Positions 26,709-33,927 of a stretch of DNA of 64,000 nucleotides are shown piece by piece. The notes under the pieces are model-generated. The model searched no databases. It saw nothing but the letters and a program-made list of their open reading frames with translations, and had not been told where the DNA came from. This DNA is from Bolinopsis microptera (Eukaryota > Ctenophora > Tentaculata > Lobata > Bolinopsidae), in the NCBI RefSeq assembly GCF_026151205.1, contig NC_087077.1, positions 10,159,983 to 10,223,982 on the forward strand, read 5' to 3'. The stretch's first letter is position 1, and each line of letters opens with the position of its first letter. The position numbers and the translations under genes are program-made.

Positions 26709-28400
26709 TTTTATTTTTATTTTACGTTTCATTGATCAATTTGACACGTTCAAATAAAAAACCTCGATTCACCGCAGTTAGAATTGTTAAATTAAACTTA
26801 AGCTTTTTTCGTTTCAAAAATTGTGCAAATTATTCGTTACGCAGATGGAAGTTCTTTAAGCGGGCAATTCCAGTCCAAACCCTGGATACATGACATAAAA
26901 GATTCGTACTTTCACTTGTTTGCATGAAAAGCATTAATACACCAATCAGTAACTTAGGTAAATGCTGCGCTAGTACGTGAATTCCCTTTCAACTCATTTA
27001 CATTTGGTTAAATTATCTTAGTTCATATAATAGTTGTAGTTAATGGTGGATATTGACTATTATATATACTAGCAGGAACCCGTATAACCCTAAAATGGTG
27101 TCAAGACTCAAGAGACTAACATAATTATTACCTATTTAATTCGCGTTTTTGACACCACTTGGGGGTCCAAATTTTGGGCTCTAAAATTTCTATTCCTTGG
27201 CCGATTATTTATTTTTTCATGCTGATTTGGAGGCCATTAAAGCATTTGACCCAGTCAAAAAAGTTTCAGTTGTATATCTTTTACGGTTTTTGCGGAAAGT
27301 CGCGTTAAAGTTGATGCCGTGGTGTCAGTAAAATGGCACGGATAAACACATATATATCGTCTCGCTTTATATATACTAGCAGGAACCCGTCTAACCCTAA
27401 AGTGGTGTCAAGACTCGAGAGACTAAAATAATTATTACCTATTTAATTCGCGTTTTTGACACCACTTGGGAGTCCAAATTTTGGGCACTAAAATTATTAT
27501 TCCTTGGCCAATTTTTTATTTTTTCATGCTGATTTGAAGGCCATTAAAGCATTTAACCCAGTAAAAAAAGTTTCAGTTGTATATCTTTTACGGTTTTTGC
27601 GGAAAGTTGCGTTAAAGTTGATGCCGTGGTGTCAGTAAAATGGCACAGATATATATATATATATATATATATATCGTCTCGCTTTATATATAGTAAGATA
27701 ATAGTAAGATTGATGGTTATACAATCATACATTTGGATCCCGACGGCACTAGTGTCGCGTACCCGGCACTGTCAAGGCACTTTCGCAGCACTATGCATGT
27801 TTCAAGAAGAAAGCGGCGCACGCTACTTCGAAGAAATTTAGACGAGTATCATCCGTCAAACAAGAGGCCCACGTTATTGACCGTGTCAATCCTTACTAGC
27901 TCGGTGAGGCCCAGTGGGGCATCTCGCCGATCTTACGAAGGTGGTTGTGAGAACAGAGAAGCATTATTGGATATATGTGCGACGCGACCAAATTTATCAA
28001 AATCGGAGACAAAAAATTCTGTGCCAACTCATGGCTCTAATTACATTACATTTACTACATTACATATAGACTATGAGCTAAAGATTTCATTTGTTGGCTT
28101 CATTAATTGAAAATTCGTCAATTTGATTTATTTGGATTTACCTCACACAATTGTGAAAAATTTCATCGGTCGACTCAAAAGATTATTAGAATACCATTAT
28201 TGGGGCAAATTGGGAGGACCTACAGAGTAGATATAGAGCTTTCCGGTATATCTACATTGTACTGTACTGTAAACATGGTACTTTTTTTTCGCAAGTTTCA
28301 TCTTTAAGATATCGTTTCAACAGTTTGATAGAAACCTGACTGTCTGGTTTATAATAAGTCACGATTTACTTCATATTAACAATGAAATAATATTTAGGCT
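26709..28400. other. Spacer upstream of APRT with tandem duplication
   Basis: 26709-26850 is the right half of the dispersed repeat split by the LINE. 27061-27690 is a 307-bp unit present twice in tandem. 27733-28110 is an open frame of 125 codons, but part of it (about 27815-27848) is a dispersed non-coding repeat also seen near 17855, and I see no domain. The APRT promoter should lie just upstream of 28401. Confidence 0.4.
27061..27690. repeat. Tandem duplication, 307-bp unit, two copies
   Basis: The landmark agcaggaacccg starts at 27071 and again at 27378. Each copy continues through tttgacaccacttgg and ttgatgccgtggtgtcagta. The copies differ at scattered bases, and the second ends in a longer (TA)n run at about 27649-27674. 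Confidence 0.8.
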
Positions 28401-30434
28401 ATGGACATTGTTACAAGATTATCGAAGGTAGTGAAAGATTGCCCTGATTTTCCCAGGAAAGGAATCCTCTTCAAAGACATAATGCCGATATTTAATGATC
28501 CTGACTTAGTACGTGACACCTGCCAATCACTCGTTGACCAGGTAACAATGATACATCGTGACAAGGATATATTGTGCAATAAAAAGGATGCTTCTCTGCA
28601 CTCATTGTAGTTTTTGACAGAAAAAATGCAAGTTTCAACAGATTTGGATCATGATACTCTAAGTTTCTTCCATTTAATATGTGACTGTGAGTTGAAAAAG
28701 ATTATCAATTTATTGTTTTCGTAACACCTTTCCTAAAACTTGTTTTCCTTTAGATGTTGACTTTTTGACTACTCGTGGACATAGTGACATCATGGAAAAA
28801 TTATCCTCCTTGCCATGTGTCTCCAACCTTTCGAATTTTAAACCATTCAGATCATTCATTCTGGTGAAAGGCCTGATGTTATTATTGGAATTGAAGCACG
28901 GGGATTCCTCATTGGACCAATTATGGCACAGCAACTTAAAATCCCGTTTGTGCCAATAAGGAAGAAAGGAAAGCTTCCCAGGGAATGTTATTCTGTAAAG
29001 TATGAAAAGGTAAATTCTGATTTAGATACTTTTTACCAAAATATTTCACAGTCTTTACTTGTTAACACCATATTGTTCATTTACCTGAATAGATCTGATT
29101 AAGTTGTGTAGTGTTATTGTGATTTGTGTCTCATCTTTAATAAATAATTCAGTACTGCATTAATATTTATACTCTGACATGTTTAACATCCTGAGCCCAC
29201 AATTAACAATAATCTATTTCAGGAGTATGGTTTTGATGAGTTCGATATTCAAATAGATGCTCTCAAGGAGGGTGATAAAGTGGTGCTAGTTGACGACCTT
29301 CTTGCCACTGGTTTGAGTCATCCTTACATTTTAAGCTTTTCTAGTCACTTAGAATTTGTAAGTCTAGTTCTAAATTTTCAGTGTCAAAAATGTGATAAAA
29401 TAGAACATATGATTTGTGTACTGTAGCTTTAACTATCACAACATGTACCCTGCAGGAGGAACTCTTGAAGCTGCCAAAAAGTTGTGCGATAAAAGCAAAG
29501 CAGAGGTTCTTTCCCACTGTGTGGTTTTTGAATTAGAGTTTCTAAAAGGGAGAGATAGGTTAAGGCCACAGGGGGGGGTCCGAGGTCAATTTTGAGATTT
29601 TGAGATATGTTGTAGAGCTCGATCTAAATTTTCAAATGCTTTTGTCCTTACCGAAAACAAAGTTTCCTATTTGAAGATATCGCGCGTTGAATTTTGAGGT
29701 TTACCTGTAATTCTATTGTAAATGAAAACTTTAAATGCAATTGTGTTAAAAATCTATCTTCTTTTTTAGTTTATGACTTAGAACCTTGTAACTTGCCAAC
29801 AATGTTCTTAAAGGTATTTTGAGTTTTTGTTATGTAACGATTTATGATATCTTGCTCCAAAGCTGAGATATGAGGTTAACCATGAGTGAGAATTACAAAA
29901 TGTACAAAATTTAAAATGGTTAACCTCATAAAAAGAGTTAGGAGCAAAATTACAACAATCGTTACATAACAAACTTTTAAATTTATGTCAGGAACATAAG
30001 TTCCAAATTTGAGGTGAAATGGATAAAAGCTCTAGGAGAAGATAGGTTTTTGAGGTGGTAAATAAATTGTTCAGGAGAGTCCAAAAGACCATGATTCTGA
30101 GAAAATATGTTAACCTCAATTTTCCAACAAATAAAGGACATATAATAGTTCTGTTCACATTGGATGGCCAATTGATACCCATTGATAAGTTTAACTTGTG
30201 ACGAGAGCAACAAAATGTTAAGAACTGGTTATTTGTGAGGTTAACTGATTAAAAAGGCAATAGTTAACCTCAATTTTACGACAAACTAGGCGCTCTGGGG
30301 GGCTAAGGGTGGTGTGCAAGCGTCAGATAGTACGTGGTCTGCCAACTGGCAAAAAACTTTTTTTCGACCTCGGACCCCCCCCTGTGGCCTTAAGGGATAC
30401 ATCTGTTATTTCGCTTGTGAAATATGGCGGCTAG
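28401..30434 (+). CDS. APRT: Adenine phosphoribosyltransferase, last coding part split by a TTAA element
   Basis: The enzyme makes AMP from adenine and PRPP in the cytosol. Exons 28401-28541, 28851-29009 and 29223-29310 join in frame and show [28 protein letters not shown] and the PRPP loop [11 protein letters not shown]. Exon 4 begins at 29456. It then meets a TTAA-flanked element at 29564. Read straight through, the frame enters the element and stops at 29595 (175 residues, altered tail). If GT at 29559 and AG at 30394 are used as splice sites, exon 4 ends at 29558 and exon 5 is 30395-30434. The protein is then 176 residues with the expected C-terminus (ISLVKYGG), close to the usual 180. 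Which form is made cannot be told from sequence. A poly(A) signal lies at about 30537, downstream of the second ending. The overall APRT call is firm; the final exon model is not. Confidence 0.88.
29560..30393. mobile_element. TTAA-flanked MITE (826 bp), piggyBac-like, in APRT
   Basis: Perfect 24-bp terminal inverted repeats start GGCCACAGGGGGGGGTC at 29564 and end with the complement at 30389. TTAA is present on both sides (29560-29563 and 30390-30393), the target duplication of piggyBac-type transposition. There is no transposase. Removing the element and one TTAA restores an open APRT frame. Confidence 0.88.
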
Positions 30435-31125
30435 ACTACACTTTAGTAGAGCATCTTGGGCTATACTGGTTCTAACAAGTTTATAATCGGATGTTTACTT
30501 ATATTTATTATGATATTATTATTCATTGTAATGGCAATAAAATTTGAGTTAAGTAATGATTTTCTTTATTGTTTTATATTAAGGGTTTTGAATTTTAATT
30601 GAACATTTCAGATTTGAACAATTTCAACAACTATATGATTGTGTACTGTTTAAAAAAGATTTCATTTGATTTTTAGCTAAGTATTGCAGTACGTGTTTTT
30701 TTGATGCTTTTGTTTAAAAAGGCTGAACCAGAAGTGCCCACAATAAGATTGCAAGTAGTTTGCGTTCCTTTGGAGTTTGGCCCAGTGAGGATAGTGTAGA
30801 TAAGAGAGCAAGAAAATGAGTAAGTCACTCTAGTTTGATCCAGTTCCTTGATGCGGCACTTGGTTTATGTATTGCCCTCTTAGTCATGCCATTGCTGGGT
30901 ACTGTTTTATAAAGGGCAAGGGGGTATCTTCCTCATTCTTGCACATGGGACAGGCACTCTGCACTATTCATTTTGCTTTATTTTGTAAAGAGCAAAATAA
31001 ATAAAAAATATATACTTTCTGCATATTAATTTTTTTTAAAGTTTGAAATTACACCCTGAGAAAGAAAAGCTGGCCTTTTTGCAGCCAATTCATTTAAATC
31101 TGTAATATCCTACTGTTTAGGAAAC
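30435..31125. other. APRT 3' region and spacer before ELP4
   Basis: AATAAA near 30537 is the likely APRT poly(A) signal. A short open stretch at about 30721-30799 (ending in FGPVRIV and a stop) is not recognised. No other gene is seen. Confidence 0.4.
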
Positions 31126-33927
31126 ATGACAAGGCCCTCTCCACAAAGCTCTGGTTTCAGAAAACTGGGCACTGTCGGTGCTGCCAGCAAGGAAACAGGC
31201 TCACTAAAAGGAACCAGAACTTCTCTTCATAGTACACTCCAACAAACTAGCACTGGTATCCAATCTTTAGACCTCCTTCTTGGTAATGGCATCAACCTCT
31301 CCTCCTCGCTTCTTATTCAGGTACACTGAGCTTCTAGTTTTTATCATATATAATGGTCTGATGTCTGCTTTTATCAGTTTATTGAAAACTTTTCATGCAA
31401 ATGCTTATTGAGTCAATGCATCAATCACAATTTTCACACTTCGTGTGTTCTGTAAATCTCAGTTATCAAACTCAACAATTTTATATTATATCACACGATT
31501 TCTGAATGTATCACGTAATCTCTGCTCTGAATGAAATGTATCGCAGGAGCAGGACAGGGGTGAGTACAGCCCAGTGTTTGCCAGACATTTTATATCAGAA
31601 GGGATAACACATGGCCACACTGTGGTCTGTATTGGGGAGAGAGTGGCCTCCTGGCTGGACAACCTTCCCAAACCTATCGAACAGAACACAGGTATGTTTC
31701 CAGAAACCTTCTTGAAGAGCATTTATTGTTAACTTGATTATTAGACACAGGATAGTATGATGATCTTGATCAAAATATTTTCTTGAATTTGCCCATTTTT
31801 ACAAGTTTACTATTAGGCTACATTAAGGGGACATACACCAAAAGCTTTTATGCCCTGGCCCTGCTGTTAACGTCATATTAAGAAAGTGTATGTATAAAAA
31901 CAATAAGATTTGATACATTAAAAATTATTTTTGAGGACCCGCACTTTCGAAAAAATAAATATTTTCTTTTTCGAAATTTTTGGAAATTTTGAGAAGTCTG
32001 TCACTGTAATACCGATATTTCGGTCATTTTAAAAGTCTTTTGGCTGATTTTGTTACTGAAGATTACTTACAATCCGTACAAGAAGCCCTTCAAAGGATTT
32101 TATAATTAAAATATAGATGACGAAGTTACAGACCAAACAAGGTCGAGAGAAGCAAAATTTAAATTTTTGTAAAAATCAAAGTTGTATATTTTACCATTCA
32201 CCCAGGTCATAAGATATCGCTTCAAAAATTCTTGTGAGTGTAGCTGATGATCATATCCAACTTTTTGGAACAGGATTTCTCTCAATTGTGAGTTTTAAGG
32301 TATAAAATGTGGCCTCAAACGACTTAGTAAAATTCATCGTAAAAAGGGCCAAACATGGCAGATTTAAGGCTTAAAATGCCTATAACTCAAAAAGCATCAG
32401 TTTTTTTGAAATAATTTTTACAGAATCGTAATCAGCTTGAGAAGACGAATCTTTTAGTACCAAATAGGTGATTTTAGAAGACAAATTGTCTTAAATAATT
32501 TTCTAGCTCGAACACAAGGGTCCCCCCTTGTATAAATTTTGTACAAATTGTACACATTTTTTTTCAAATTTTGTGTCTTAAACTACTATAAATTTGGTAC
32601 TAAAAGATTCGTCTTACCAAGCTGATTACGATCCTGTAAAAATTATTTCAAAAAAACTGATACTTTTTGAGTTATAGGCATTTTAAGCCTTAAATCTGCC
32701 ATGTTTGGCCCTTTTTACGATGAATTTTACTAAGTCGTTTGAGGCCACATTTCATACCTTAAAACTCAAAATTGAGAGAAATCCTGTTCCAAAAAGTTGG
32801 ATATGATCATCAGCTACACTCACAAGAATTTTTGAAGCGATATCTTATGACCTGGGTGAATGGTAAAATATACAACTTTGATTTTTACAAAAATTTCAAT
32901 TTTGCTTCTCTCGACCTTGTTTGGTCTGTAACTTCGTCATCTATATTTTAATTATAAAATCCTTTGAAGGGCTTCTTGTACGGATTGTAAGTAATCTTCA
33001 GTAACAAAATCAGCCAAAAGACTTTTAAAATGACCGAAATATCGGTATTACAGTGACAGACTTCTCAAAATTTCCAAAAATTTCGAAAAAGAAAATATTT
33101 ATTTTTTCGAAAGTGCGGGTCCTCAAAAATAATTTTTAATGTATCAAATCTTATTGTTTTTATGTATACTTTCTTAATATGACGTTAACAGCAGGGCCAG
33201 GGCATAAAAGCTTTTGGTGTATGTCCCCTTAAGCATGGGCCCAAATTAATCTGCTGGTCTTTAATTATGACTGTTTACAGATGCTCAAACACAAGATGAA
33301 GACAGTCTAAAGATAGCCTGGAGATATAAGCGTAAGATTCAAACCCGATTCAGTCACAGCTACGACATGTCCCAGCAGCGACCTTCTGAAGATATCAGCA
33401 ACTGCAGAATTTTCACTAACAGTGATCCATCGTACGACGACTTGTATATTTTTATCGAGAGTGCTGTTCATGATAATGAGGATAATGTTGTAAGGATAGT
33501 TTTAGATAGACCCATGTTTCCTGTTGCGGATGAAGCAGCATTTTTACGATTCCATTACAATCTGAGGAAGTTATCTGCCAAGAAAAATGTCGTGACATTG
33601 TGTTTATACCCGGTCAGGACAATGTCAGATTCTTTATCATTTTACCTCACTCAACTTTACAACTACGTCCTAAGTGTCGAATCTCTTCCGAGGGACAAAA
33701 AATCAATTTTCAAAGATTACCATGGTATTTTGCACCTGGTGAAAGTAGCCAACATGTGTACCTTTACAATGCCTCTCCACGATATGACGGACAGGTTCTT
33801 CAAGGTACAGAGGAAGAAGTTTATCATTGAGAAGATGCATCTTCCTCCTGACTTGAGTGAGACTGTCAGTAGGTCTTCTAACTCGCCATCCGCTAATTGT
33901 GCTTCTTCAAAGGGCATCGATTTTTAG
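31126..33927 (+). CDS. ELP4: Elongator complex subunit ELP4
   Basis: ELP4 is one of the three RecA-like proteins (ELP4-6) that form the accessory ring of Elongator, which modifies uridine at the tRNA wobble position. Exons 31126-31320, 31547-31691 and 33281-33927 join in frame and give 328 residues. Matches to the family are GTRTSLH and STGIQSLDLLLGNG near the start (RecA-fold entry, with a degenerate nucleotide loop as usual for ELP4), HTVVCIG in exon 2, and LKIAWRYKRK at the start of exon 3. The protein is shorter than the human one (about 420), mostly in the linker and C-terminal parts. Intron 2 (31692-33280) is filled almost wholly by a 1.4-kb palindromic element. The start ATG is the only one in frame before GTRTSLH in this exon. 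Confidence 0.88.
31823..33232. mobile_element. TTAA-flanked fold-back element (1.4 kb, near-perfect palindrome)
   Basis: The left arm starts GGGGACATACACCAAAAGC at 31827 and the right arm ends with its complement at 33228. Each arm is about 680-700 bp, and they match base by base through most of their length, with only a short central loop around 32520-32570. TTAA flanks both ends (31823-31826 and 33229-33232). There is no ORF. RNA from it would fold into a very long double-stranded hairpin. Confidence 0.9.

Follow-up and report, generated by a model that had tools for sequence, protein, structure and literature searches.

Among the closest described systems are the introners (Gozashti et al. 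2022). Passages of that paper (PMC9860276) note that introners with inverted repeats have been reported elsewhere, that introners are generally well spliced, and that in Florenciella both splice sites are co-opted from the target copies. These passages thus already contain the idea that a transposon can give rise to an intron by taking both of its splice sites from the target (PMC9860276). The locus described here resembles these cases in that a DNA transposon lies in a coding exon and both splice sites could come from the copies of the target, and codon gain or loss on insertion is also described there (PMC9860276). It differs in that splicing is predicted here from the DNA alone and in that no set of copies at introns was found in a sample of 94 copies. 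In the literature on ctenophore introners, intron gain, transposable elements and Kolobok, the APRT case was not found among the matches listed.

Two groups of transposons that duplicate a TTAA target are relevant to the classification of the element. According to the sections of PMC9587614 consulted, Kolobok termini are of the form 5'-RR and YY-3', and the P2RX7_C domain is assigned to KolX, a protein encoded by Kolobok elements. The terminal motif of piggyBac is given as CC[C/T]T in part of PMC2872659.

Structure of the insertion in APRT

Reading of the window (the whole stretch of 64,000 nucleotides that was analysed) revealed that the last coding exon of APRT is interrupted by a non-coding element of 826 bp. 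The exon starts directly after an acceptor sequence and can be followed to its native stop on the far side of the element. The features of the locus, with predicted splice sites given as candidates, are as follows.

29456..29563, plus strand: APRT last coding exon through the first TTAA; acceptor ...CCCTGCAG/GAGG, translation matches APRT
29559..29564, plus strand: candidate 5' splice site TAG/GTTAAG, formed by the target G, the TTAA and the element's first base; a weak site that scores -2.4 and comes 25th among the 58 GTs of 29481-30380
29560..29563, no strand: left TTAA target duplication, read from the sequence
29564..30389, no strand: 826-bp non-coding element, putatively Kolobok-type and MITE-like, ends GGCCACAGGGGGGGGTCCGAGGTC ... 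inverted; end type as given in part of PMC9587614
30061..30066, plus strand: AATAAA within the element, with a second AATAAA at 30130 and ATTAAA at 30248
30366..30394, plus strand: candidate 3' splice site ...CCCCCCCCTGTGGCCTTAAG/G, with the inverted repeat as pyrimidine tract and TTAA plus the target G as AG; it scores 3.4, the highest value among the 57 AGs of 29561-30480
30390..30393, no strand: right TTAA target duplication, read from the sequence
30394..30434, plus strand: what remains of the last APRT exon, native stop included, identified by translation

The termini of the element form a perfect inverted repeat of 24 bp, or 28 bp when the TTAA is included. The original prediction of an 826-bp element with perfect inverted ends and TTAA duplications in this exon was thus confirmed at 29560-30393. 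The identity of the gene was established by a protein match to 5yw2 (E 4.8e-44) and by the Pfam family Pribosyltran. A search of the assembly (264.65 Mb in 232 contigs) returned four matches at E values up to 10, all of which were exons of the same locus, indicating a single APRT locus. An empty or spliced APRT junction could not be found elsewhere in the 232 contigs, a negative result limited by the fact that a collapsed assembly would not contain an empty site.

Copies of the family in the genome

The end sequence of the family occurred 524 times in the genome at no more than one mismatch, compared to two occurrences of the reversed pattern, which is more than chance would give. These ends correspond to roughly 260 copies. 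Exact ends numbered 215, with G before the TTAA in 73, C in 44, and A or T in 98, and they could be resolved into 126 elements, 89 of which had both ends exact. Both flanks were read for 94 of the 126 elements (45 from fetched loci and 49 more), the flank size read being 200 bases for 29 copies and 300 for 20; the sample of 94 includes only a minority of the copies with mismatched ends. TTAA was present at both edges of 93 of the 94 copies (64 of the 65 for which the entire element was available, and 29 of 29 others), a proportion that is partly built in because the search pattern included TTAA. The exception, C6:19078885, carries TAAA at its left edge. Alignment with the APRT copy extended over more than 700 bp for 25 of 64 complete copies, and 17 of these 25 alignments were at 98% identity or more, the APRT copy's own row being counted in both figures; the closest other copy read was 99.64% identical. 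The insertion in APRT is regarded as recent, in an undated sense, because the element is nearly identical to other copies.

Classification of the element

The APRT element fits a non-autonomous transposon of Kolobok type rather than piggyBac, a label that is drawn from its ends and target only. Its ends read GG...CC, in agreement with the 5'-RR and YY-3' form, and the family carries the TTAA target duplication of Kolobok. With piggyBac and piggyBac MITEs it shares the TTAA duplication, but the piggyBac assignment was rejected since the ends GGCCACAG (GG...CC) lack the CC[C/T]T given for piggyBac in part of PMC2872659. Non-autonomous Kolobok elements such as the Xenopus T2-MITE are likewise non-coding, with TTAA duplications, 5'-RR...YY-3' ends and many similar copies; the T2-MITE differs in its end, AGGRR compared to GGCCACAGG here, and the host here is a ctenophore. 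Another difference from Kolobok elements is that no transposase with the ends of the APRT element was found here, where the searches covered piggyBac genes and KolX-type frames. Matches to piggyBac transposase genes numbered 26 in the genome, and the one closest to a listed element (126 in all) starts 11.8 kb away from it; KolX-type P2RX7_C frames numbered 49, the closest lying at a distance of 34 kb from a listed element. The 49 P2RX7_C matches suggest the presence of Kolobok Kol0-type elements in a ctenophore.

Two long copies were considered as autonomous partners and rejected. A 4.4-kb family copy (L153, C6:11386150-11390556) proved to be a tandem array, consisting of 10.3 units of 246 bp that are 99% alike. 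Its structure recalls the Xenopus T2 MITEs Xmix and Xstir, which are internally amplified according to part of PMC6004289. The long copy in L073 contained two ORFs of at least 80 amino acids, and a BED finger is present in one of the two.

Target-site preference

Of the 94 insertions, 20 lie at the target GTTAAG/CTTAAC, compared to 98 of the 1456 other TTAA sites present in their flanks (binomial p 3.8e-6), an approximately threefold enrichment. One of the 20 insertions arose from another through segmental duplication, and flanks are also shared by two additional pairs of copies. In the window, used as a further control, GTTAAG on either strand occupied 24 of 545 TTAA sites. Where the subfamily could be assigned, such targets were seen in 6 of 26 copies of the APRT copy's own subfamily and in 12 of 37 of the other. 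A G stood immediately outside the TTAA at 34% of insertions compared to 17% in controls. Because nearly all GTTAAG insertions lie outside recognised exons, this bias appears to reflect how the target is chosen and not a rescue of insertions by splicing. As a consequence of the enrichment, chance introns of the TTAA-borrowed form would be commoner than expected, and the probability of splice-ready edges after a hit in an exon rises to about one in ten in the sense direction. Even if the APRT element is unspliced, the GTTAAG bias offers a testable explanation for differences between transposons in how often they could seed introns.

Candidate splice sites and predicted transcripts

The possible intron has the form G+TTAA...TTAA+G, and both of its dinucleotides require the target GTTAAG. 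Both splice sites need the G of the target, so the element does not by itself constitute an intron. The pyrimidine tract before TTAAG is supplied by the inverted repeat in either orientation of the element. A good acceptor had been predicted at the right edge, and this was borne out: it is the top-scoring of the 57 AGs in its region and exceeds 96% of 3688 AGs on the window plus strand. The left edge AG/GTTAAG had been put forward as a usable donor, and its geometry holds; its strength does not, as it ranks only 25th among the 58 GTs of its region, although it exceeds approximately 73% of 3842 GTs on the window plus strand. All of these scores come from a vertebrate-like matrix, which was not trained on the ctenophore genome scored. 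The donor of APRT intron 3, CTG/GTTTGA, scored -1.95 compared to -2.42 for the candidate donor and is thus about equally weak; because intron 3 is an accepted intron of the gene, the candidate donor may well work. Folding of the RNA in silico predicted that the ends of the element pair over 28 nt (z -8.75, 20 shuffles), covering the downstream side of the donor and the pyrimidine tract.

In silico read-through of the unspliced element replaced the last 12 residues of APRT with 9 others followed by a stop, and the two AATAAA inside the element could terminate unspliced transcripts. In silico removal of 29559-30394 kept the frame and left two residues fewer than the protein of the empty site. 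The expectation that splicing there would preserve the frame, cost two residues and restore the C-terminus was therefore upheld by translation, but the frame carries no weight as independent evidence, because a TTAA duplication inside GTTAAG, when spliced as GT..AG, always costs exactly 6 nt. One of the two residues that would be removed is the Leu of the GR..L motif. This Leu was present in all eight APRT alignments printed (three, together with five near-identical entries that we take to be human).

Copies in host coding exons

Among the 94 copies, two were recognised as interrupting host coding exons, namely APRT and C1:13192368, while for the remaining copies no host exon was recognised; some of these copies lie next to host exons, and others within frames of LINE or KolX type. 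Two is a minimum figure, because Pfam missed the APRT fragment itself and most of the recognition of host exons was done by eye. Of the 142 spanning frames printed, Pfam was run on 42, the longer and less repetitive ones, and it recognised neither the APRT fragment nor the metallophosphoesterase-like one. A codon-usage scan of 216 spanning frames revealed no further host exon; the scan is weak, since APRT ranked just about 15th of the 216.

The second case (C1:13192368-13193200) lies in the apparent last coding exon of a gene with the motif SGHTHGGQ, presumably metallophosphoesterase-like. Its target is GTTAAC and its right edge has no AG, and a second copy of the host gene could not be found in the genome. 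Exon hits that lack a clean rescue are therefore present in the assembly.

Genome-wide, six exact ends read AGGTTAAGGCCACAGG, the AG/GTTAAG edge, and in three of them TTAAG was also present on the opposite side: APRT, C8:15460228 and C13:11096428. Only APRT among these three has a recognised host exon. At C8:15460228, no open frame of at least 30 amino acids spans the insertion site. The copy at C13:11096428-11097277 (L069) reads, on the minus strand, CAG/GTTAAG...TTAAG/GGG directly after an open frame of approximately 70 codons, for which no Pfam match and no homologue were found; the frame is either an unknown exon or a product of chance. If it is an exon, it would favour a reading in which introns are gained through GTTAAG targeting. 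Elsewhere in the same locus (L069, 188-928), an intact ORF encodes a calcium-regulated photoprotein close to two ctenophore photoproteins, Mnemiopsin 1 (E 8.6e-126) and berovin (E 7.9e-125), and it is from this single strong protein match that the genome was assigned to a ctenophore.

Several other candidates were examined and set aside. C9:12210670 had appeared as an insertion into a host gene, but its frame matches the P2RX7_C domain (E 1.6e-9), a KolX domain according to part of PMC9587614 with 49 matches in the genome, and its right edge lacks an AG. At this locus, a member of the APRT element's family has inserted into a KolX-type frame. At C9:5614061, the match to a dynein 2 domain begins after the insertion, and the reading frame, judged by eye, suggests that the insertion lies in the intron just before the exon. 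Judged in the same way, the copies at C1:19197178 (CN_hydrolase; presumably a NADSYN1-like gene) and C8:542890 precede a start codon.

A search for further copies at introns had been proposed as a check on the original prediction. The arrangement AG/GTTAAG...TTAAG/G in a recognised host coding exon was seen in 1 of 94 copies, which is APRT itself. Introner families show several introns that are similar up to their splice boundaries, and here a single copy in the 94 has this form in a recognised host exon. Like an introner, the APRT copy is inserted into a coding exon. On this basis the reading as an introner family was rejected for the sample of 94 out of approximately 260 copies.

Origin and fate of the insertion

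The locus is probably best explained as a recent Kolobok-type insertion in an APRT exon, with splicing absent or partial, that arose as a chance product and not from a dedicated intron-making family. A recently active non-autonomous TTAA transposon would have jumped into the GTTAAG of the last coding exon, and the splice-like edges would be a chance product of a transposase preference for G beside TTAA. Some splicing is possible, since the target hexamer provides a GT on the left edge and an AG on the right one, and the inverted repeat provides a C-tract before the AG; some transcripts may accordingly be joined at 29558/30395 and encode a protein two residues short. The weakness of the donor and the capacity of the ends to pair over 28 nt nevertheless lead us to expect that splicing is partial if it occurs at all. 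The default effect would be the altered C-terminus obtained by read-through in silico. A point against this explanation is that a working APRT product might be under selection, because there is one APRT locus and no empty or spliced version elsewhere.

The insertion may also be a segregating allele. We consider the evidence evenly balanced on whether the sequenced animal carried a null or hypomorphic allele that is rare or segregating, with an uninterrupted last exon as the norm in the species; such an allele is compatible with the chance insertion preferred above. The near identity of the element to other copies, which makes it recent, argues for such an allele, as does the gene at C1:13192368, which is also interrupted without clean edge splicing and has no other copy. 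The 232 contigs, in turn, hold no empty-site sequence, though a collapsed assembly would not be expected to.

Efficient splicing of the element at 29559-30394 as a new APRT intron, with sites taken wholly from the target as in the Florenciella introners, is rather unlikely. The GT..AG geometry with its frame, the best acceptor of the region, the equal weakness of the intron 3 donor and the single APRT locus speak for it, together with the same kind of site recruitment described in passages of PMC9860276. These points are offset by the weak donor, the perfect 28-nt pairing of the ends, the loss of a conserved Leu, a frame that is automatic, and the lack of a second recognised host-exon case with the same arrangement in 94 copies. 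The original reading of the element as a new intron thus keeps its geometry and acceptor and loses ground on donor strength, the conserved Leu and the other copies, with splicing itself a prediction. If the element is spliced, the locus would show how the gain of an intron begins in a ctenophore when the target supplies both splice sites.

We are also doubtful of a broader proposal, in which a GTTAAG-preferring ctenophore element of Kolobok type would make ready-framed GT..AG introns in coding exons, with APRT caught soon after the birth of one; intron gain would then be a by-product of target choice by an element that does not carry complete splice sites. A dedicated introner family, that is, a transposon selected for being spliced, is highly improbable: the GTTAAG preference and a pyrimidine tract supplied before TTAAG either way round would suit it, but only 2 of 94 copies lie in recognised host coding exons, only one of these two has splice-ready edges, and the edges depend on the G of the target and not on the element.

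Other repeats in the window

A second TTAA element with GG ends was present at 31823-33232, with TTAAGGGGACATACACC at both edges. It is a nearly full palindrome, with arms of 611 nt at 96%, and it lies within an intron of an apparent ELP4 gene, an identification that we assume. Adjacent similar copies of a repeat of approximately 300 bp (TAGCAGGAACCCGT...GGTGTCAGTAAAATGGCAC) could be seen by eye at about 27063-27360 and 27365-27660, beside a TA run.
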